From: Nitrospirota bacterium
GTDB lineage: Bacteria > Nitrospirota > Nitrospiria > SBBL01 > JAADHI01
DNA length: 64,000 nt
Direction of reading: 5' to 3'
NCBI GenBank assembly: GCA_029261155.1
Contig: JAJDBW010000010.1
Span: 1-64,000 of the forward strand
Both the position numbers and the translations under genes were made by a program. Positions 49,490-60,625 of this stretch are shown in pieces. The notes beneath the pieces are model-generated. The model was given only the letters and a program-made list of their open reading frames with translations. It ran no database searches and had not been told where the DNA came from. Positions within the stretch are counted from its first letter, which is position 1, and the number at the start of each line of letters is the position of its first letter.

Positions 49490-49579
49490 TGCGCGGTTTT
49501 GTAAACTGCGTTTATTTTCTTGAATATTTACAGGATTTTAGTCAAGGTTTCCTGTAATCAAAATTTGCGGAGGCAGGAT

Positions 49580-50785
49580 ATGGCAAAGGTACTTGAGGGG
49601 CCCGGAATGGGACTCCTTGCGAAATGGGGGATGCCCGTCCCGCATTATGTGGTGATTACAGAAGCGGCCCAGCTCGATGCGCTGGCCAAAGCGAATCCTT
49701 GGTTGATTGAGTCGAAACTGGTGGCGAAGGCGCATGAAGCGATCGGTTCTCGGATGAAGTTAGGCCTGGTTAAAGTGGGGCTGGATTTAGATGGGGCCCG
49801 AGAAGCCGCGAAAGAAATGCTTGGAAAGGCCGTTTCCGAAGTGACGATCTCTCAGGTCATTATCTCCGAGATGGTCGATCACCAAGATGAATATTATATT
49901 GCGGCCCAATCAACCCGCGAAGGCGCCGAGCTCCTCCTGGCATCGATGGGCGGCATCGAAGTGGAAGCGAATTGGGAGAAGGTTAGAAAACTGGCGATCT
50001 CCTTGGGAAGCGAACCGACAGGGACGGAATTGGAAAAATTGGCCAAGGATGCCGGATTCGAGGGTGATTTGGTCGGCAAGGTGGCGCAATTCGCCGCAAA
50101 ACTCTATCGTTGTTTGGACGAGGAAGACGGGACCTATCTGGAAGTCAACCCGCTCGTTCTCCGGGCCTCAAATGGCGAACTCACGGCCTTGGATGCGGTG
50201 ACCATGGTGGATGCCGATGCCCGCTTCCGCCATCCCGATTGGAATTTCACCTTTGCCTCCGAATTCGGCCGGCCCTATTCCGATAACGAAAAGGCGATCC
50301 TGGAAATCGACACCCGCGTGAAGGGCTCAGTGAAGTTTATCGAAATCCCCGGCGGCGACACGGCCCTCCTTCCGGCGGGCGGTGGGGCTTCTGTTTATTA
50401 TTCGGACGCCGTATTGGCCATGGGGGGGACTTTGGCCAACTACGCGGAATATTCCGGCGATCCGCCCGACTGGGCCGTCGAGGCCCTTACCGAAAAAGTC
50501 TGTTCGCTCAAGGGCATCAAACGCATTATTGTTGGCGGTGCCATCGCAAATTTCACCAATGTCAAAAAGACCTTTTCCGGCATCATCAAGGGTTTCCGAA
50601 AGGCCAAGGCCGAAGGAAAAATGGAAGGGGTTTCTATTTGGGTTCGGCGCGGCGGCCCTTTCGAAAAAGAAGGGCTGGCGGCGATGAAAGTCCTTGAAAA
50701 CGAGGGGTTCGACATCCACGTCTACGACCGTTATACCCCCTTGACCGACATCGTTGACTATTCGATTAAAGGAGTGAGCGCATGA
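49580..50785 (+). CDS. aclB: ATP citrate lyase, beta (small) subunit
   Basis: This 401-residue subunit resembles succinyl-CoA synthetase beta with an ATP-grasp domain. With its partner it cleaves citrate, ATP and CoA to acetyl-CoA and oxaloacetate, the key rTCA step. MAKVLEGPGMGLLAKWGMPV, ATP-grasp strands such as VISEMVDHQDEYYIAAQSTR, TYLEVNPLVLR, and the C-terminal IPGGDTALLPAGGGASVYYS, then NYAEYSGDPPDWAVEALTEK, match AclB of Nitrospirae, Aquificae and Chlorobi. The ATG at 49580 follows GGAGGCAG; 20 further codons in frame upstream lack support. The stop overlaps aclA. Confidence 0.95.
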   Translation: MAKVLEGPGMGLLAKWGMPVPHYVVITEAAQLDALAKANPWLIESKLVAKAHEAIGSRMKLGLVKVGLDLDGAREAAKEMLGKAVSEVTISQVIISEMVDHQDEYYIAAQSTREGAELLLASMGGIEVEANWEKVRKLAISLGSEPTGTELEKLAKDAGFEGDLVGKVAQFAAKLYRCLDEEDGTYLEVNPLVLRASNGELTALDAVTMVDADARFRHPDWNFTFASEFGRPYSDNEKAILEIDTRVKGSVKFIEIPGGDTALLPAGGGASVYYSDAVLAMGGTLANYAEYSGDPPDWAVEALTEKVCSLKGIKRIIVGGAIANFTNVKKTFSGIIKGFRKAKAEGKMEGVSIWVRRGGPFEKEGLAAMKVLENEGFDIHVYDRYTPLTDIVDYSIKGVSA

Positions 50786-52599
50786 GTATCCTCACAAGCA
50801 AAGACACCCGCGTGGTGATTCAAGGTGGTCCGGCCGGCGTAAACGCCGCGCGCCGCATGGCGGAATTCTGTCACCTCAGCCGGATTCCATTCAACGTCTC
50901 CGCCTTTGTCTTTCCACCCGATGCGGGTAAAACGGTCGAAATCCCCTGTGGCAGCACGCTGGTTTCGGTACCGACCTTCAGCACTGTGGAAGAGGCGACC
51001 AAGGCCGACCCCGGTATCAATACCTCGCTGATTTACATTGGGCCCAGCCGGGCCTACGACGGCACCATGGAGGCCTTGAAAGATCCAAAAATTAAATTGG
51101 TATCGATGATTACCGAAGGCCTACCCGAAAAAGACGCCAAGAAGTTACGGATCGAATCCGAACGGCTGGGCAAAACGTTTAACGGCCCCTCATCCATCGG
51201 CATTATCTCGGCAGGGGAGGCGCGCTTGGGTGTCATCGGCGGCTCCTACGACAACCTCGTGCTTTGCAAACTGCATCGCCAGGGTTCCTTTGGGGTGATT
51301 ACCAAGTCGGGTGGGCTGTCCAACGAAATCATGTGGATCTGCAGCCAGTTCGCCAACGGGATCACCACGGCCATCGGCATCGGCGGAGACACTTATCCGG
51401 GCTCCGACTTTTCGACCTATCTTGAGATGTTCGAAAACGATCCCCAAACGCATGCCGTGGTCATGGTGGGTGAAATGGGAGGCGATCTCGAAGAAAAGGC
51501 TGCTGCATGGTTTGCCGCGAAGAAGCGCCGGATTCAGCTTATCGCCGTGGTCAGCGGCTATTGCCAGGAGGAATTGCCCAAGGGCATGAAGTTCGGCCAT
51601 GCCGGCGCAAAGGAAGGCCTGCACGGCGAAGGCTCGGCGCGGGCCAAGGCGGAGGCCCTTCAAAAAGCGGGTGCCCTCGTGCCGGCCACATTTGGTGGAT
51701 TGGGCCCGGCCATTAAAAAGACCTATGAAGCGCTCCTTGCCGGCGGCAAGCTGACGACGGTTGCTGAGGACGCAGTGCCTCAAAATCTACCGAAGACGAT
51801 TGAAGAGGCCATCGCCGACGGTGATGTCTTTGTCGAACCGCTGGTTAAATCCTCCATTTGCGACGACCGCGGCGACGAGCCCTATTACAGCGGCTATCCG
51901 GCTTCGGAACTGATCAACAAGGGCTACCAGATCCCCCACGTCATCGGCCTCCTGTGGGACAAACGTTTGATTACGCCAGTTGAATCGGAAATCGTCAAGC
52001 GCATTGTCATGCTTTCGGCCGATCATGGTCCTTGTGTTTCTGGCGCGCTGGTGACCATCATCGCGGCCTGCGCGGGCATTCAAATGGCCCAGTCGGTGGC
52101 GGCCGGGATGATTATGATCGGACCGCGCTTCGGCGGTGCCGTGACCGGTGCGGGGACTTGGTTTAAGTACGCGGTCGAAAACAAACTGAGTGTGGATGAC
52201 TTTCTCAGCTACATGAAGCAAAACGTGGGTCCCGTGCCGGGTATTGGCCATCGGGTGAAATCGCTTCGGAATCCGGACAAGCGGGTGAAAGAGCTGGTCA
52301 TTTTTGTGAAGTCGCAAAAAATTTCAACGCCGCATCTCGACTTCGCCCTTGCGGTGGAGGAAAAAACGACGGCAAAAAAAGACACCTTGATTTTGAACGT
52401 GGACGGCACGATGGCCGCCGTCTTGGTCGACCTGGGCTTTAAAGTTGAGGCCTTAAATGGTTTTTTTATTTTGTCCCGAACCATCGGTCTCATCGGTCAT
52501 TGGATCGACCAAAATCAGCAGGGCAGCCGTCTCATCCGGCTCTTTAAGTATTTGGCCAACTACGTTGCACCGAAAAAGAGAGAGGTGCCGCCGCTTTAA
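50782..52599 (+). CDS. aclA: ATP citrate lyase, alpha (large) subunit
   Basis: In this 605-residue subunit the first 350 residues resemble succinyl-CoA synthetase alpha, with CoA-binding strands and the phosphohistidine motif KFGHAGAKEG (His273). The C-terminal part is a citrate-synthase-like domain with SADHGPCVSGA (His415), GPRFGGAVTGAG and GIGHRVKS (His490). This split two-gene ATP citrate lyase is diagnostic for an rTCA autotroph, as opposed to the citryl-CoA synthetase/lyase variant. It is translationally coupled to aclB (ATGA). No citrate synthase gene is seen nearby. Confidence 0.96.
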   Translation: MSILTSKDTRVVIQGGPAGVNAARRMAEFCHLSRIPFNVSAFVFPPDAGKTVEIPCGSTLVSVPTFSTVEEATKADPGINTSLIYIGPSRAYDGTMEALKDPKIKLVSMITEGLPEKDAKKLRIESERLGKTFNGPSSIGIISAGEARLGVIGGSYDNLVLCKLHRQGSFGVITKSGGLSNEIMWICSQFANGITTAIGIGGDTYPGSDFSTYLEMFENDPQTHAVVMVGEMGGDLEEKAAAWFAAKKRRIQLIAVVSGYCQEELPKGMKFGHAGAKEGLHGEGSARAKAEALQKAGALVPATFGGLGPAIKKTYEALLAGGKLTTVAEDAVPQNLPKTIEEAIADGDVFVEPLVKSSICDDRGDEPYYSGYPASELINKGYQIPHVIGLLWDKRLITPVESEIVKRIVMLSADHGPCVSGALVTIIAACAGIQMAQSVAAGMIMIGPRFGGAVTGAGTWFKYAVENKLSVDDFLSYMKQNVGPVPGIGHRVKSLRNPDKRVKELVIFVKSQKISTPHLDFALAVEEKTTAKKDTLILNVDGTMAAVLVDLGFKVEALNGFFILSRTIGLIGHWIDQNQQGSRLIRLFKYLANYVAPKKREVPPL

Positions 52600-52712: not shown

Positions 52713-54962
52713 ATGTCGACTGAGTTGATTGCAAAGCAATACCAAAAGATGCAAGAAAAGGTGGACCAGGCCCGAACCCACTTGGGGCATCCACTGACCT
52801 TGGCGGAAAAGATTCTGTTTTCGCACCTCGACGATCCGGATAATCAAGTCTTGGAACGCGGCAAGGCCCAACTGGCCCTGCGACCCGATCGGGTCGCCAT
52901 GCAGGACGCCACGGCGCAAATGGCCATGCTCCAGTTTATTCAAGCCCGAAAGAAAAAGGCGGCCATTCCCAGCACCATCCACTGCGATCACTTGGTTCGT
53001 GCTCATACGGGGGCGAAGGAAGACATCGAACGGGCGATCAACGAGAACAAGGAGGTCTACGAATTTCTCCGCTCGGCCGCCGAAAAATACGGTATCGGGT
53101 TTTGGAGACCCGGCGCGGGCATCATCCATCAAGTCGTCCTCGAAAACTATGCCTATCCCGGCGCGCTGATCATCGGCACCGACTCCCACACGCCCAACGG
53201 CGGCGGACTGGGTGCCTTGGCCATCGGCGTGGGTGGCGCGGATGCGGGCGAGGTCATGGCGGGCCTGCCTTGGGAAGTCTTGCATCCCAAACTCCTGGGC
53301 GTAAAGCTCACGGGATCCTTAAGCGGCTGGACCTCGGCAAAGGATGTCATCCTCTATCTCTGCGGCCTGCTCACCACCAAGGGCGGCACCAATAAAATTG
53401 TCGAATATTTTGGGCCGGGCGCCGAAACTATCAGCGCCACCGGCAAGGGCACCATTACGAATATGGGCGCGGAGTTGGGCGCAACGACCTCCGTTTTCCC
53501 CTACGATCAAAAGATGGCGGCCTATCTCAAAATCACCAATCGCAGCGACGTGGCCGAGCTGGCCGATGTCCACCGTGCGCTCTTGACGGCGGACCCCGAA
53601 GTCTTGGCCGATCCGAAAAGCTATTACGATGAGGTGGTCGAGATCGATCTCAGCACTTTGGAGCCCCACGTGGTCGGACCACACTCACCGGACTTGGCCC
53701 GGCCGATCTCAAAGCTGAGGGCCGAGGCCGAGGAAAAAGGCTATCCGAGGGAAATCAAGGCCGCGCTGGTCGGAAGCTGCACTAACTCCTCTTACGAAGA
53801 TCTCACCCGCTCGGCGCATATCGCGCGTCAAGGTTTGAAAGCCGGTTTGAAGGCCAAGGCGCAATTCCTGATTACCCCTGGATCGGAGCGCATCTATTAC
53901 ACCATCAAGCGCGACGGTTTAATGCAGACCTTCGAGGAGATGGGCGGCACGGTCATGGCGAATGCCTGCGGCCCCTGCATTGGGCAATGGAAGCGCGACG
54001 ATATTCAAAAGGGCGAGAAAAATTCGATCATCAGTTCCTACAACCGAAACTTCGCGGGCCGGAACGATGCGAACCCGGAAACCCTCTCTTTTTTAAGCAG
54101 CCCCGAACTCGTCACGGTGATGGCTTTTGCCGGAGATCTCGGCTTTAATCCCATGACCGATACATTGGCCACCGCCGACGGGACGAAGATTAAGTTCGAA
54201 CCGCCCCAGGGCGACGAGCTGCCAGTGAGCGGTTTTGCCGAGGGAGAAGAAGGGTTTGTCGCGCCCGCCGAAAATGGCGACAATGTCGAAGTCATTGTCG
54301 GACCCGAGAGCGAACGGCTTCAGCTCCTCGAGCCCTTCCCGGTTTGGGACGGAAACGATTTCGATAAACTCCTGGTGCTCCTTAAAGTAAAGGGCAAGTG
54401 CACGACCGATCATATCTCGCCAGCTGGACCCTGGCTGCGTTATCGGGGCCACCTCGATCGCATCAGTGACAATATGTTTTTAGGCGCGAACAATCTTTTT
54501 ACCGAAGAGGCGGGCAAGGCGAACGATGTCTTGGACAAGGCGTCGAACCTGACCCCGGCACAAGTCGCTCGGCGTTATAAGTTGAAGGGCCTGGGTTCCG
54601 TCGTCATTGGCGACGAAAACTACGGCGAAGGCAGCTCGCGTGAGCATGCGGCCATGTCGCCCCGTTTCCTCGGCATCCAGGTCGTCATCACCAAGAGCTT
54701 CGCCCGGATTCACGAAACCAATTTAAAGAAACAAGGCGTGTTGCCCTTGACCTTCGCCGATCCGAAAGATTGGGAAAGCATCGATCAAGACGACCGCGTC
54801 AGCGTGGTCGGCTTGGCGGATCTGGCGCCGGGCAAGCCGGTAGAAGTGGTGGTGCACAAAGCCGATGGAAGCGAGCTGCGCTTCCAAACGAACCACAGCA
54901 TGACGGAACAACAAGTCGGCTGGTTTAAAGCGGGTTCAGCCTTAAACGCCCTAAACGCATAA
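52713..54962 (+). CDS. acn: Aconitate hydratase, mitochondrial type
   Basis: This 749-residue [4Fe-4S] enzyme interconverts citrate, cis-aconitate and isocitrate. GTDSHTPNGGGLGALAIGVG and YLKITNRSDVAELADV are present. The Fe-S ligands are the Cys of GSCTNSSYED (about 355) and both Cys of ANACGPCIGQW (about 420). The swivel domain carries GSSREHAAMSPRFLG. Compared with the standard bacterial AcnA (about 890) or AcnB (about 860), the length and GWTSAKDVILYLCG region fit the eukaryote-mitochondrial group. It is placed after ATP citrate lyase; in the reductive cycle it runs towards citrate. AAGGAG precedes the ATG. Confidence 0.95.
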   Translation: MSTELIAKQYQKMQEKVDQARTHLGHPLTLAEKILFSHLDDPDNQVLERGKAQLALRPDRVAMQDATAQMAMLQFIQARKKKAAIPSTIHCDHLVRAHTGAKEDIERAINENKEVYEFLRSAAEKYGIGFWRPGAGIIHQVVLENYAYPGALIIGTDSHTPNGGGLGALAIGVGGADAGEVMAGLPWEVLHPKLLGVKLTGSLSGWTSAKDVILYLCGLLTTKGGTNKIVEYFGPGAETISATGKGTITNMGAELGATTSVFPYDQKMAAYLKITNRSDVAELADVHRALLTADPEVLADPKSYYDEVVEIDLSTLEPHVVGPHSPDLARPISKLRAEAEEKGYPREIKAALVGSCTNSSYEDLTRSAHIARQGLKAGLKAKAQFLITPGSERIYYTIKRDGLMQTFEEMGGTVMANACGPCIGQWKRDDIQKGEKNSIISSYNRNFAGRNDANPETLSFLSSPELVTVMAFAGDLGFNPMTDTLATADGTKIKFEPPQGDELPVSGFAEGEEGFVAPAENGDNVEVIVGPESERLQLLEPFPVWDGNDFDKLLVLLKVKGKCTTDHISPAGPWLRYRGHLDRISDNMFLGANNLFTEEAGKANDVLDKASNLTPAQVARRYKLKGLGSVVIGDENYGEGSSREHAAMSPRFLGIQVVITKSFARIHETNLKKQGVLPLTFADPKDWESIDQDDRVSVVGLADLAPGKPVEVVVHKADGSELRFQTNHSMTEQQVGWFKAGSALNALNA

Positions 54963-55021: not shown

Positions 55022-55711
55022 ATGAGCGTTACGGAGACACAAGGCAGGGCATCGGAGACCATTGCCGTCGAGATCATGGGGAAGAAGTACCGTATTCCGC
55101 CCGGCCTCACCATGCTGCAAGCGATGTGGCATACGGGCCACGAATTGGTACGCGGCGTCGGCTGTTTGGGTGCGGTCTGCGGGGCGTGTCCCTCGACCTA
55201 TCGCACAAAGGGCGACACCAAGATCAAAACCACCTTGGCCTGTCAGACGCAGGTCGAGGACGGCATGTCCTTTTCGCTGACCGCGTCCTATTACCCGGAC
55301 AAAAAGGTCGTCTATCATTTCGACGAGATGAAGGACCCGAAGCAGGATCTCTTCCATTATTATCCAGAGGCGGCCTTGTGCCGCAACTGCGATGCCTGCA
55401 CGGTGGCCTGTCCCAAGGGCATCGACGTCCGCACCGGCGTGTGGAAAGCCGTCTTCGGCGACTTTAAGGACGCCTCGGATCTCTTTCTCTCTTGCGTCAT
55501 GTGCAGTTTGTGTGTCCCCGTGTGTATCGCGGATATTGCGCCGAACCAGGTGGGCCTTTTTGCCCGGCGGGCCCAGGGCATCTTTTTCGAAGAAAAAAAA
55601 CCGCAGCTTTCGCTTCGCGTGAAGGAAATCGCGGACGGAAAATTTGATACCGAATGGGAACGGCTGATGACCTTGCCGGACGAGGCCATCCAGGCCGAAT
55701 CTTCGGTCTAG
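55022..55711 (+). CDS. frdB: Fumarate reductase-type iron-sulphur subunit 1
   Basis: This 229-residue electron-transfer subunit has an N-terminal [2Fe-2S] beta-grasp domain with C48-x4-C53-x2-C56 and C74 (VGCLGAVCGACPS, LACQT). An alpha-helical ferredoxin domain follows with two CxxCxxCxxxC clusters, C120-C130 (CRNCDACTVACPKG) and C158-C168 (CVMCSLCVPVC). It belongs to the SdhB/FrdB superfamily, but in standard SdhB the last cluster is [3Fe-4S], whereas both here have four regular cysteines. It is followed by a paralogue and a flavoprotein; no heme or anchor subunit is near. It probably passes electrons from a soluble donor to the flavin. Confidence 0.9.
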   Translation: MSVTETQGRASETIAVEIMGKKYRIPPGLTMLQAMWHTGHELVRGVGCLGAVCGACPSTYRTKGDTKIKTTLACQTQVEDGMSFSLTASYYPDKKVVYHFDEMKDPKQDLFHYYPEAALCRNCDACTVACPKGIDVRTGVWKAVFGDFKDASDLFLSCVMCSLCVPVCIADIAPNQVGLFARRAQGIFFEEKKPQLSLRVKEIADGKFDTEWERLMTLPDEAIQAESSV

Positions 55712-55730
55712 GACCGTTTCAAGACGGTCC
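55711..55730 (+). other. Small hairpin between the two Fe-S genes
   Basis: GGACCGT pairs with ACGGTCC over a six-base loop, beginning in the frdB1 stop codon and followed by ATTTTAATAT. It could slow or stop transcription, or protect the upstream RNA end, and so set different levels for the two Fe-S subunits. Confidence 0.5.
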
Positions 55731-55760
55731 ATTTTAATATGTAGAGAGGAGAGACCGGCG

Positions 55761-56396
55761 ATTTCGCAGTCTGTCACAATTAAAGTAGACGGCTCGGCCC
55801 ATGCCGTTCCCGAAGGCATTACCGTCATCCAGGCCATGTGGCACTTGGGGCGGCCGATGCTGCACGGCGTCGGCTGTTTGGGCGGCGTCTGCGGAGCCTG
55901 TCCCATTAGCATCCGCCTGCCCAATCAAATGGCCCCGAAGACGGCCTTGGCTTGCCAGACCCTGGTTGCAGAGGGGGCCGAAATGGCCTTTCTGCCCGGC
56001 GACGCCTCGAAAAAAGAGATCGCCCCGCTGCCCGCCGAAACGCCGAACCAGAACACGCTCTTTCAATATTATCCCGAAACGCGCCGTTGCGTGGCCTGCG
56101 GGGCCTGTACGTCCATCTGTCCGCAAGGCATCGATGTGATGGCAAGCGTACGGGAGGCGATGAACGGAAAATTGGCCGAGACCGCCGATCGCTTTGTCGA
56201 TTGCGTGATGTGCGGCCTCTGCGCCGCTGTCTGCGACGTGAAAGTCCGGCCGCACCGCGTCGGCCTTTATACTCGGCGTTTGATCGGCGCCTTTCAAGAA
56301 AATGAAGCGACACAACTGAAAAAACGCATCGAAGAGATCGGTTCCGGCCATTACAAGGAGCAATGGGCTGCCTTAATGGAAGAGGCCGTTCATTGA
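55761..56396 (+). CDS. Fumarate reductase-type iron-sulphur subunit 2 (probable ATT start)
   Basis: This 211-residue paralogue of the preceding gene has GVGCLGGVCGACPIS for [2Fe-2S] (C39, C44, C47, C65) and two CxxCxxCxxxC sets (CVACGACTSICPQG at 110-120; CVMCGLCAAVC at 148-158). The first ATG, at 55836, would remove the first strands of the beta-grasp domain. The frame continues upstream through SVTIKVDGSAHAVPEGITVI, matching the paralogue, but offers no ATG, GTG, TTG or CTG. The best start is ATT at 55761 with a GAGGAGAGA site nine bases before it. Two tandem FrdB-type subunits are also annotated beside rTCA fumarate reductases in Aquifex. Confidence 0.88.
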   Translation: MSQSVTIKVDGSAHAVPEGITVIQAMWHLGRPMLHGVGCLGGVCGACPISIRLPNQMAPKTALACQTLVAEGAEMAFLPGDASKKEIAPLPAETPNQNTLFQYYPETRRCVACGACTSICPQGIDVMASVREAMNGKLAETADRFVDCVMCGLCAAVCDVKVRPHRVGLYTRRLIGAFQENEATQLKKRIEEIGSGHYKEQWAALMEEAVH

Positions 56397-56411
56397 AAGC
56401 ACGCATCGCCC

Positions 56412-57998
56412 ATGTCTGATATCGACGTTTCAAAAGAACGGGTCAATACCTCCCGCGCCGCGCGCAGCCAACAAGAAATGCCGCGCCTTTCCGCCGAAGA
56501 GAAGGATGACCTCGTTCACCGCTATCATCCCGATTACAAAAAAGAGGCCTACGCCACCCTCCGCTTTGGGCCCAACAAAGGCGAGCAAACCGTACACGAA
56601 TTGGCGCGTTTGCTGGAGGGCGAAAGCCCGGTGCCCGCCGATTTCCCCGCCTTGAAACCGGCGCATCAGGTGGACATCCTCATTATCGGCGGCGGCGGCG
56701 CCGGGGCCACGGCCGCGCTCACTGCGAAGGCCGCGGGCGCGAAAATTCTCATGGCGACCAAGCTGCGCTTGGGCGATTCGAATACTGTTATGGCCGAGGG
56801 CGGCATGCAGGTGGCCGTTTCCCCGGAGGATTCGCCCATCCGTCATTTCGTCGATTCGCTCAAGGGCGGACATATGGCGAATGACCGGGTCCTCTTAAAA
56901 CAGCTGGTCGAGGAAGGCCCCTCGGTGGCGCAATGGCTTATCGACCTTGGCGTGATGTTCGACCGCGAGGATGACGGCAACCTCAGCCTCCGCGCGGGCG
57001 GTGGCAGCAGCCTACCGCGCCTCTTGCGCTGCAAGGACTACACGGGTCTCGAACTCATGCGCGTCCTTAAGGATTGCGTACTCAACGAGGAGGTCGAGGT
57101 CCTGGAATTCTCACCGGTGATCGAACTTTTAACCGATGGCAAAGGTAGCTGCACGGGGGCGATTTTAAAAGACCTCGACAACGACCGACGCATCGTCGTC
57201 CAAGCCAAGACCGTGATCTTGGCGACGGGCGGCATCGGCCGCTTGCACATTCAAGGCTTTCCCACCAGCAATCATTTCGGCGCGACGGGGGATGGCTTGT
57301 CCATTACCTATCGTGCGGGCGCATCGCTGACCTTGCAGGATACCTTTCAATATCACCCCACAGGCGCGGTGTTTCCCGAAGCCATGGCGGGTCTGTTGGT
57401 GACCGAGGCCATTCGTTCGGCCGGGGCGCACCTCTTAAACGCCAAGGGCGAGCGTTTTGTTTACGAGCTGGAAACGCGAGACGCCGTGGCCTCCGCCGTG
57501 ATTCGCGAATGCCTCGAAGGCCGCGGAATTCAAACGCCTGCGGGCCGCTACGGGGTGTGGATTGACATGCCCCTGGTGGACCAAATCAACGGCGAAGGGA
57601 CGCTGGAGAAACGCTTTCCCAACATGATCCGGCAGTTCAGCCGTTACGACATCGATATCCGAAAAGAACCGGTCTTGGTTTATCCGACGCTCCATTATCA
57701 AAACGGCGGCATCCAGATCGATGCCGAGGGCGAATCGACCTTGAAAAACCTGTTCGTCGCCGGAGAGGCCTCCGGTGGGATTCACGGACGCAACCGACTG
57801 ATGGGGAATTCCTTGCTCGACATCATCGTCTACGGCAAGCGCGCCGGAGCAGCAGCTTCGAAACGCGCGGCGGCCTCCGATTTTGGGCCGCTTTCCTTGG
57901 ACCATCTTTCGCGTTTTCGAAAAGAGCGAAGCGAGGCCGGCGTGAATTCGGATGTGGTTTCGCCGATGCTTTTTCCGGATTACGTTAAAAAGCAATAA
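56412..57998 (+). CDS. frdA: Fumarate reductase flavoprotein subunit, non-covalent FAD type
   Basis: This is a 528-residue FAD subunit. After an unusual 85-residue N-terminal extension the Rossmann motif VDILIIGGGGAGATAALTAK begins near 87. At the position of the FAD-linked histidine in FrdA/SdhA (SHTV-A-GG) it has GDSNTVMAEGG: Asn124 instead of His, so FAD should be bound non-covalently, as in L-aspartate oxidase. Active-site elements are kept: FQYHPTGA, TEAIRSAGAH, ETRDAV, PTLHYQNGGIQID and GGIHGRNRLMGNSL. Aspartate oxidase is the main alternative, but the two adjacent Fe-S subunits and sucCD favour fumarate reduction. Starts 15 bases after frdB2. Confidence 0.9.
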   Translation: MSDIDVSKERVNTSRAARSQQEMPRLSAEEKDDLVHRYHPDYKKEAYATLRFGPNKGEQTVHELARLLEGESPVPADFPALKPAHQVDILIIGGGGAGATAALTAKAAGAKILMATKLRLGDSNTVMAEGGMQVAVSPEDSPIRHFVDSLKGGHMANDRVLLKQLVEEGPSVAQWLIDLGVMFDREDDGNLSLRAGGGSSLPRLLRCKDYTGLELMRVLKDCVLNEEVEVLEFSPVIELLTDGKGSCTGAILKDLDNDRRIVVQAKTVILATGGIGRLHIQGFPTSNHFGATGDGLSITYRAGASLTLQDTFQYHPTGAVFPEAMAGLLVTEAIRSAGAHLLNAKGERFVYELETRDAVASAVIRECLEGRGIQTPAGRYGVWIDMPLVDQINGEGTLEKRFPNMIRQFSRYDIDIRKEPVLVYPTLHYQNGGIQIDAEGESTLKNLFVAGEASGGIHGRNRLMGNSLLDIIVYGKRAGAAASKRAAASDFGPLSLDHLSRFRKERSEAGVNSDVVSPMLFPDYVKKQ

Positions 57999-58070
57999 AG
58001 AAAAAGTCAGCATCCGCAGATGGAAGAACGCCTTCTATCTTTATATCACTCGCGATCTTGGGAGGAAGCT

Positions 58071-58499
58071 ATGAACGGACTGAGAGTCATCTTTGCTGCA
58101 GCTTTGATCTTTATATCCGGCACGGCCGTTTTTGCCGACATGTCCAGATCGGCCTCGTCGAAAGGGGCCTCGGTTTATATTATTTCACCGAAGGATGGCG
58201 AAACGGTTTCGGAACACCTGATCGTGCGCTTTGGGCTCAAAGGCATGGGCGTGGCCCCGGCGGGCACCGAAAAAGGGGGAACCGGTCATCACCATCTCTT
58301 GGTCGATGCAGAGGCCCTTCCGCCCATGGACAAGCCCATGGGCAAGGACGGCATTCAGCATTTCGGCGGCGGCCAAACTGAAACCATGCTGATGTTGAAA
58401 CCGGGCAAGCACACCTTGCAGTTGGTCCTGGGCGATCAACATCACCTGCCTCACGATCCACCCCTGGTTTCGAAAAGGATTACGATCACGGTGAAGTAA
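58071..58499 (+). CDS. Periplasmic DUF4399 protein
   Basis: This 142-residue secreted protein has a signal peptide (MNGLRVIFAAALIFISGTAV, cleaved near VFA-DM) followed by the DUF4399 domain: VYIISPKDGETVSEHLIVRF, GTGHHHLLVD, QHFGGGQTETMLML and LVLGDQHHLPHDPPLVS. The histidine pairs suggest metal or ligand binding, but function is unknown. The ATG at 58071 follows GGGAGGAAGC. It lies between the fumarate reductase flavoprotein and sucC, an odd place for an exported protein. Confidence 0.88.
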   Translation: MNGLRVIFAAALIFISGTAVFADMSRSASSKGASVYIISPKDGETVSEHLIVRFGLKGMGVAPAGTEKGGTGHHHLLVDAEALPPMDKPMGKDGIQHFGGGQTETMLMLKPGKHTLQLVLGDQHHLPHDPPLVSKRITITVK

Positions 58500-58562: not shown

Positions 58563-59726
58563 ATGAATATTCACGAATACCAAGCCAAGGCCTTGTTTGC
58601 CAAGTATCAAATCCCCGTTCCGAAGGGCAGCGTCGCTTTTTCGAAGGAAGAGGCGGTGAGCGTCGCGGAATCCCTCGGCAGTCCCGTGGCCGTCGTCAAG
58701 GCCCAGATTCATGCGGGCGGGCGCGGCAAGGCCGGTGGGGTGAAGTTGGCCAAGGGCAAGTCCGAGGTGTTGCCGATTGCCGACGAGATTCTCGGCAAGA
58801 TCCTGGTGACGCCCCAGACCGGGCCGGAAGGCAAAGAAGTGAAAAAGCTCCTCGTCGAAGAGGGCCTCGATATTAAAAAGGAGCTCTATCTCAGTCTGGT
58901 TGCGGATCGCGGCACTGCATCCGTGGCGATTATCGCCAGCACAGAGGGCGGGATGGAAATCGAAGAAGTGGCCGAAACCCATCCCGAAAAGATTATTCGG
59001 GAATCCATCGACCCGGTCTTCGGTTTTCAGGCCTATCAAGGCCGGGCGGTGGCCTTTAAAATGGGCTTGCCGAAGGAAGTGATCGGCCAGTGGGTGAAAC
59101 TGCTTGCCAATCTGTACCGGCTTTTCGTCGATAAGAGCGCCACGCAAATCGAGATCAACCCGCTGATTATTACGGGAGACCTGCGACTCGTCGCTCTCGA
59201 CGCCAAAGTCGGCTTCGACGACAACGCCTTGTTTCGAAGTCCGGATCTCAGCGAACTGCGTGACCTTGACGAAGAAGATCCCTTGGAGACGCGTGCGGCC
59301 CAGCATGGCCTGAACTATATCAAGCTCGATGGCACCATCGGCTGCATGGTCAACGGCGCGGGTCTGGCGATGTCCACGATGGATGTCATCAAACTGGCGG
59401 GCGGCGAACCGGCGAACTTTTTGGATGTCGGCGGCGGCGCGTCGAAAGAAACGGTGAAGCAGGCCTTTCAAATCCTCTTGGACGATCCGAATGTGAAGGG
59501 CGTTTTTGTGAACATCTTCGGCGGCATCGTGCGCTGCGAGCGCATTGCGGGCGGCATTCTCGATGCGGCGAAGGAGGTCGCGCTGACGGTGCCGCTTGTC
59601 GTCCGCTTACAAGGCACGAACGCGGAAGAGGCCCGGCAGTTGCTTGCGGCCTCCGATTTAAAATTGACCGTCGCCGACACCCTCTGGGACGGCGCGCAGA
59701 AGATCGTCGCCGAAGTGGGTAAATAG
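58563..59726 (+). CDS. sucC: Succinyl-CoA synthetase, beta subunit
   Basis: This 387-residue ATP-grasp subunit contains [50 protein letters not shown] and [20 protein letters not shown] followed by GGGASKETV, with [14 protein letters not shown] near the C-terminus. With SucD it interconverts succinate and succinyl-CoA; in the reductive cycle it makes succinyl-CoA for the next carboxylation. It has normal length and is followed by sucD after 26 bases. Confidence 0.97.
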
Positions 59727-59752: not shown

Positions 59753-60625
59753 ATGTCTGTTCTGGTGAATAAAGACACACGGGTCTTGGTACAAGGGATT
59801 ACGGGGAAGGAAGGTTCCTTTCACGCCGCCGCTTGTAAGGCATACGGCACGCAAGTGGTCGCGGGCGTGACCCCCGGCAAGGGGGGCGAGGAATGCGAGG
59901 GTATCCCCGTTTTTAATACCGTCGAAGCCGCGGTGGTGCAAACCAATGCCGACGTGGCCTTGATCTTCGTGCCCCCGCCCTTCGCCGCCGATGCGATTAT
60001 GGAATCGGCCCAGGCGGGCGTGCCCTTGATCATTTGCATTACCGAAGGCATTCCCGTTTTGGACATGATGCGGGTGAAGCGCTTTTTGGCCGGAAAGCCC
60101 GTGCGCCTCATCGGCCCGAACTGCCCCGGCATTATCACCCCCGGCGAATGCAAGATCGGCATCATGCCCGGCTTCATTCATAAAAAGGGGAGCGTCGGCG
60201 TGGTCTCGCGCAGCGGCACGCTCACCTACGAAGCGGTGTGGCAATTGACGGAACTCGGACTGGGCCAATCCACCTGTATCGGCATCGGCGGCGATCCGGT
60301 GAATGGGACCCACTTTGTCGACGTGTTGGAGCTGTTCGAAAAAGACGGCCAAACAGAAGCCATCGTCCTCATCGGCGAGATCGGCGGCGACGCAGAAGAG
60401 ACGGCGGCGGCCTATATCAAGGCCCATGTCAGCAAACCGGTTGTCGCCTTTATCGCGGGCATGACCGCGCCGCCCGGCAGACGCATGGGTCACGCGGGCG
60501 CAATTATCTCCGGCGGCAAAGGCACGGCGGCGGACAAAATGACCGCACTGGAAGCGGCCGGCGTCACGGTCGTGAAAAACCCTGCTCTCATCGGCGAAGC
60601 CATTGCGAAGCGTTTAAAAAAATAA
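59753..60625 (+). CDS. sucD: Succinyl-CoA synthetase, alpha subunit
   Basis: This 290-residue CoA-binding subunit contains [65 protein letters not shown] and the phosphohistidine site [20 protein letters not shown] (His247). AAGGAG precedes the ATG. Together with sucC it closes the rTCA block. The 2-oxoglutarate:ferredoxin oxidoreductase that would use succinyl-CoA is not in the window. Confidence 0.97.

Follow-up and report, generated by a model that had tools for sequence, protein, structure and literature searches.

Tandem iron-sulfur subunits and a putative soluble fumarate reductase in a reverse tricarboxylic acid cycle operon of a Nitrospirota bacterium

An unsettled question is how aerobic autotrophs that run the reverse tricarboxylic acid (rTCA) cycle on high-potential donors (nitrite, iron, manganese) reduce fumarate when they have no dedicated membrane quinol:fumarate reductase. 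It is taken up here for three adjacent genes, frdB1, frdB2 and frdA, in a 64,000-nucleotide stretch of contig JAJDBW010000010.1 (positions 1 to 64,000; hereafter the window). The host genome (GCA_029261155.1) is a Nitrospirota genome of the Candidatus Troglogloeales type, 3.56 Mb in 90 contigs, and its closest named relatives are Ca. Manganitrophaceae/Troglogloeales metagenome-assembled genomes with FrdA identities of 70–80%. The reading that we favor, with a probability of about 0.7, is that FrdB1-FrdB2-FrdA is a soluble fumarate reductase with non-covalently bound flavin adenine dinucleotide (FAD), which works reductively in the rTCA cycle and most likely draws on reduced nicotinamide adenine dinucleotide (NADH) by way of a NuoF protein.

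Residues, phylogeny and fold of the flavoprotein

We aligned 93 proteins of the FrdA family, SdhA/FrdA and NadB (L-aspartate oxidase), with E. coli FrdA numbered as the mature protein. The column of the histidine that binds FAD covalently in E. coli FrdA was occupied by Asn124 in the window FrdA, and the substrate site was intact, with H315, E332, R356, H428, and R462 corresponding to H232, E245, R287, H355, and R390 of E. coli FrdA. Both features had been reported in an original prediction made from the window sequence, and the alignment bears them out. That prediction had also treated the replacement of His by Asn as something special to this protein, which did not hold: all aligned FrdA-family members have Asn there, SdhA and E. 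coli FrdA have His, and NadB has Ser, Ala or Asn. Since every aligned family member, across at least six phyla, carries the Asn, it is not a chance substitution. Nitrospira-type NadB (six loci) likewise had Asn in this column, and Asn there is therefore not diagnostic of a fumarate reductase.

In the FrdA tree, the FrdA family, SdhA/FrdA and NadB formed three groups with support values of 100/100, 100/99, and 99/97, respectively, NadB being the neighbouring clade of the FrdA family and the order between the three groups being unsure (long E. coli branches). Against curated profiles, FrdA scored 294 bits with TIGR01812 (SdhA/FrdA), under the cut-off of 567.3. Its best match was TfrA of the methanogen thiol:fumarate reductase TfrAB (NF004900/NF004898), with 362 bits or half the cut-off of 718. 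The match to the curated FrdA and TfrA profiles ended near position 410 of about 550–570; FrdA is without the C-terminal domain of FrdA/SdhA/TfrA and has an N-terminal extension of 85 residues. The predicted structure had a mean pLDDT of 89.7 (27-row alignment) and its top match in the PDB was E. coli FrdA over 450 columns, so that in this model the fold is FrdA-like. The window FrdA has the flavoprotein fold and the substrate residues in common with E. coli FrdABCD/SdhABCD; it differs in the Asn for His, the absence of an anchor and the missing C-terminal domain.

Iron-sulfur subunits and the operon

FrdB1 and FrdB2 share about 40% identity. Twelve cysteines, four for a [2Fe-2S] cluster and four for each of two [4Fe-4S] clusters, were present in 51/51 homologs of both paralogs, in line with the cluster content originally predicted. 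At V208 of E. coli FrdB, the position of its 3Fe-4S cluster, both proteins have Cys, and the assignment of two [4Fe-4S] clusters is therefore correct at the motif level; E. coli FrdB has one 4Fe-4S and one 3Fe-4S cluster. Both match Pfam Fer2_4, and neither reached the cut-off of 88 bits for the complex II iron-sulfur protein (TIGR00384; 19.1 bits for FrdB1 and 29.9 bits for FrdB2). With the TfrB model, FrdB scored 21.7 of 385 bits, and the HdrB-like, thiol-oxidizing CCG part of TfrB is absent.

FrdB2 and its counterparts formed one clade in a tree of 57 rows (support 99/98), and FrdB1 grouped with the single FrdB proteins of other lineages. FrdB2 was found in 8/8 members of the window's family, in 6/6 of the Manganitrophus family, in two more families of the class and in one family outside it. 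Given a single clade spread over several families, FrdB2 is, judged from these sequences, an ancient paralog that several Nitrospirota families have retained. A fold search with FrdB2 returned nothing beyond partial, weak matches (TM about 0.3), to [2Fe-2S] domains in RnfC and complex I.

The three same-strand open reading frames (ORFs) of the original prediction were confirmed, with one correction at the start of FrdB2. The first in-frame ATG, GTG or TTG lies at 55836 and would cost the beginning of the [2Fe-2S] domain. An ATT at 55761 aligns exactly with the ATG of a relative, which places FrdB2 at 55761-56396; because this start is non-standard, a plain ORF list truncates the protein. The ATT is kept in five other related species, two of which (L044, L046) likewise offer no alternative start. 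ATT is a very rare start codon, and it may keep FrdB2 synthesis low.

The three genes stand on one strand in the order aclB, aclA, acn, frdB1, frdB2, frdA, a secreted DUF4399 gene, sucC and sucD (Table 1). This is an rTCA carbon-fixation operon with aclBA, from a manganese-oxidizer-like bacterium, and the placement of acn-frd-sucCD inside the acl operon is conserved across the class. The DUF4399 gene is present in the closest relatives and absent at this place in Manganitrophus and the other Nitrospiria read.

Table 1 Features of the rTCA operon in the window
Feature	Coordinates	Strand	Remark
aclB-type ATP-citrate lyase subunit	49580..50785	+	same operon; ORF list places start at 49520
aclA-type ATP-citrate lyase subunit	50782..52599	+	same operon
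aconitase (acn)	52713..54962	+	same operon
FrdB1, [2Fe-2S] + two [4Fe-4S] protein, 229 aa	55022..55711	+	groups with single FrdB of other lineages
FrdB2, FrdB1 paralog, 211 aa	55761..56396	+	ATT start; purine-rich GAGGAG upstream
FrdA, fumarate-reductase-type flavoprotein, 528 aa	56412..57998	+	Asn124 at covalent-FAD column
secreted DUF4399 protein	58020-58499		between frdA and sucC
sucC, succinyl-CoA synthetase beta	58563..59726	+	reaction following fumarate reduction
sucD, succinyl-CoA synthetase alpha	59753..60625	+	ORF list and synteny

No membrane subunit gene was found in the operon, in the operons of the related loci read or near FrdBA in any lineage read. A hydropathy scan gave no convincing membrane helix in FrdB1, FrdB2 or FrdA, the best 19-residue segments coinciding with the Cys motifs and with the motif that binds FAD. 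All marks of the FrdBA family occur together here: the FrdA clade, the invariant Asn, a 12-Cys FrdB and no anchor gene nearby. On other contigs, the genome encodes a His-type SdhA, an SdhB followed by a CCG-type SdhE anchor, NadB and AprAB. By its gene content, the organism thus has a separate E-type succinate dehydrogenase, which leaves the FrdA enzyme of the operon available to work reductively. According to PMC9557727, enzymes with non-covalent FAD, namely soluble fumarate reductases and L-aspartate oxidase, can reduce fumarate but are unable to oxidize succinate, an analogy that supports the reductive direction here without proving it.

Two other identities for the complex were weighed against this background. 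FrdA might be an L-aspartate oxidase or another dicarboxylate oxidoreductase, as NadB too is without the covalent-FAD histidine and forms the neighbouring clade. This is the most improbable of the alternatives, given that Glu121 and Ser389, which are specific to NadB, are Gly in FrdA (the first is Ala or Pro in some NuoF-linked relatives), that the score with the NadB model was 294 bits vs a cut-off of 452.75, that the FrdB partner is conserved and that the genes lie in an rTCA operon. The comparison with NadB proposed in the original prediction placed FrdA outside the NadB clade, and we rejected a NadB identity on the tree, the diagnostic residues and the separate NadB of the genome. Nearly as improbable is a membrane-linked quinol:fumarate reductase with its anchor encoded elsewhere. 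A candidate anchor does exist in the E-type SdhE with its CCG domains, but it is the sole anchor of this type seen and adjoins an SdhB of its own; the genome also encodes a His-type SdhA. The FrdB proteins are moreover far under the SdhB/FrdB cut-off (19–30 of 88 bits), and FrdBA stands without an anchor throughout the lineages read; a hidden anchor was rejected because the only one seen goes with its own SdhB.

FrdB1-FrdB2-FrdA is thus likely to reduce fumarate, as far as its sequences indicate. We propose that a soluble, cytoplasmic complex would make succinate for SucCD in the reductive cycle. With Asn at the linking position, FAD would be held non-covalently and its potential would stay low, which would bias the enzyme to fumarate reduction and leave succinate oxidation to the separate E-type enzyme. 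Electrons would enter through FrdB, with its [2Fe-2S] and two [4Fe-4S] clusters, and pass to FAD; FrdB2, placed between the donor and FrdB1-FrdA, may serve as an extra relay or as a docking subunit. The soluble, anchorless, reductive enzyme of the original prediction is therefore supported at the level of sequence comparison.

Partner genes and the electron donor

Genome searches were evaluated with E-values calculated per genome. FrdA with an identity of at least 61% was found in 55/58 related genomes. Among the three without a match, one (G025) has an FrdB at a contig end and two (G012, G020) are 82–85% complete. A strong FrdA match was obtained in 93 of 198 genomes of the phylum, including further families with rTCA-type genes, and FrdB-FrdA pairs occur outside it in Bacillota, Synergistota, Fibrobacterota, Fusobacteriota, Myxococcota, Chloroflexota and Pseudomonadota.

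The genes around FrdBA were of four types. In type (a), the order is HdrA-FlxD-FlxC-FlxB-FlxA-FrdB-FrdA, at times with HdrB/HdrC; its holders are anaerobes, namely Clostridia, Ilyobacter, Synergistaceae and, as a second copy, Nitrospirota family f19. Type (b), FrdB-FrdA-NuoF, was seen in Bergeriella, Chloroploca, Cupriavidus, Paraburkholderia and Pseudoroseomonas. Type (c), FrdB2-FrdB1-FrdA-sucC-sucD-FlxC-FlxB-FlxA, was found in three genera of Nitrospirota family f14, with neither HdrA nor FlxD in the operon. Type (d) consists of FrdB(-FrdB)-FrdA-sucCD with acl, citryl-CoA-type or kor-like genes and has no donor module; it is held by Nitrospiria, family f22 and Magnetococcales, and the window belongs to it with its tandem FrdB. 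Family f19 has FrdBA twice, once next to sucCD and once inside a complete HdrCBA-FlxDCBA operon, which makes for a natural comparison inside one genome. On the Ilyobacter polytropus plasmid, an aspartate ammonia-lyase gene lies immediately upstream of the Hdr-Flx-FrdBA operon, an arrangement that suggests aspartate-derived fumarate as an electron acceptor.

Relatives of the complex have been proposed before. PMC6315080 describes putative tfrAB genes that lie among flxABCD-hdrABC in rTCA clusters, and PMC7282089 (citing Koendjbiharie & van Kranenburg 2019) describes a succinate operon of P. thermosuccinogenes with Flx-Hdr, a "unique" fumarate reductase and a proposed link to ferredoxin reduction. 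As far as these accounts go, the FrdBA family is thus already proposed, as putative tfrAB and as a bifurcating fumarate reductase; the Flx-Hdr-FrdBA operons of Ilyobacter and Clostridia match the description, kinship being judged by operon description only, and the window differs from it in having no Flx/Hdr genes and a second FrdB paralog. No biochemistry of the FrdBA family was found in open-licence literature. In the literature read, there was no mention of the clade of FrdB2 paralogs, of the ATT start, of operons that combine FlxABC with tandem FrdB or of an mdh-linked NuoF (see below), and these appear to be new.

A soluble fumarate reductase of the rTCA cycle with NADH as donor is known in Hydrogenobacter and Aquifex (FrdABCDE). 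Set against the window by description only, that enzyme is built of five subunits, its FrdA being larger (63.9 kDa in Aquifex), and Aquifex FrdA-E are listed in PMC10052474.

FlpD/FlxD was not found in 58/58 related genomes by a search that was positive in two control genomes; FlxC and HdrA were not found in the host or related genomes in searches run without a positive control. A protein matching PF17179 (FlxB-like) sits at a contig end in the host genome, and in the relatives read such matches lie mostly inside group 3b [NiFe]-hydrogenase operons. Judged by gene content, Flx-Hdr is unlikely to be the donor in the host organism, and we rejected it for the host genome since the searches for FlpD, FlxC and HdrA came back empty.

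When FrdBA-linked NuoF was used as the query, the best match in nearly every genome was a NuoF outside the complex I operon, and the complex I operons carry their own NuoEFG. On host contig C32, this orphan nuoF occupies 98937-100109, has no nuoE or nuoG and lies in a cluster (L133:8507-12928) with mdh, a sigma-54 regulator, a short CxxC zinc-ribbon-like ORF and erpA. The mdh cluster recurs at eight further loci, and the nuoF-mdh link, found in families f1, f2, f3, f5, f6, f9, f10, f11, f12 and f13, is conserved across the class. In the NuoF tree, the mdh-linked proteins fall outside the complex I clade. Its position outside complex I and beside mdh throughout the class makes the orphan NuoF a candidate NADH-input subunit; malate dehydrogenase acts two rTCA steps upstream of fumarate reduction. 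A second orphan NuoF-like protein of 468 aa is encoded on host contig C25 (L134:8676-10079), with no complex I genes near and in a NuoF-tree clade of its own.

The original prediction had named a ferredoxin, or a protein yet to be specified, as donor. Ferredoxin stands as a possibility, and because NAD(P)H-oxidizing modules accompany FrdBA again and again in relatives, NADH is at least as likely. In the ferredoxin scheme, the same enzyme would be fed by reduced ferredoxin that a complex I variant would generate by reverse electron flow, with FrdB2 as the ferredoxin docking subunit, a scheme to which we give rather less than even odds. It fits an operon that holds no donor gene and the failure to find FlpD, HdrA and FlxC in 58 related genomes, and for Manganitrophaceae, which have complete rTCA gene sets, complex I_3 has been put forward as the route to ferredoxin (PMC9040806; fumarate hydratase is the sole mention of fumarate there). 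On the other hand, the donor modules encoded with FrdBA oxidize NAD(P)H, and ferredoxin would probably be costly for the fumarate couple. A bifurcating enzyme, in which NADH oxidation by fumarate would be coupled to ferredoxin reduction, is proposed for the Flx-Hdr-linked relatives in PMC6315080 and PMC7282089, and relatives do sit in HdrA-FlxDCBA-FrdBA operons. It is very unlikely in the host organism, where HdrA, the bifurcating-flavin subunit, and FlxD were not found, nor were they in related genomes.

We therefore keep NADH as the most likely donor, delivered by a NuoF-type subunit encoded off-operon (the orphan nuoF by mdh); reduced ferredoxin is its chief rival. Several observations weigh against this choice. 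In the free tree, the orphan NuoF stands apart from the FrdBA-linked NuoFs, a joint clade being not rejected (p-AU 0.226), and it could serve another enzyme. The G012 genome (82% complete) has an orphan NuoF and no detected FrdA. The KorAB-like genes that come after FrdBA-sucCD in Magnetococcales are ferredoxin-dependent, an arrangement in keeping with a ferredoxin donor. More tentatively, Nitrospiria may have a split NADH:fumarate reductase encoded at two distant loci, FrdB1-FrdB2-FrdA being the catalytic half and the mdh-linked NuoF the NADH-oxidizing half; evolution would then have joined FrdBA to different NAD(P)H modules on three or more occasions (NuoF, FlxABC and Flx-Hdr). This proposal, doubtful as it stands, names Nitrospira, "Leptospirillum-like" bacteria (the label is a guess) and manganese oxidizers.

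FrdBA is near-universal in Nitrospiria and belongs to a widespread putative fumarate reductase family. The comparative map drawn here, with the same FrdBA core, differing donor modules, one ancient extra FrdB and an orphan NuoF beside malate dehydrogenase, makes the question of its electron donor approachable by simple reconstitution.

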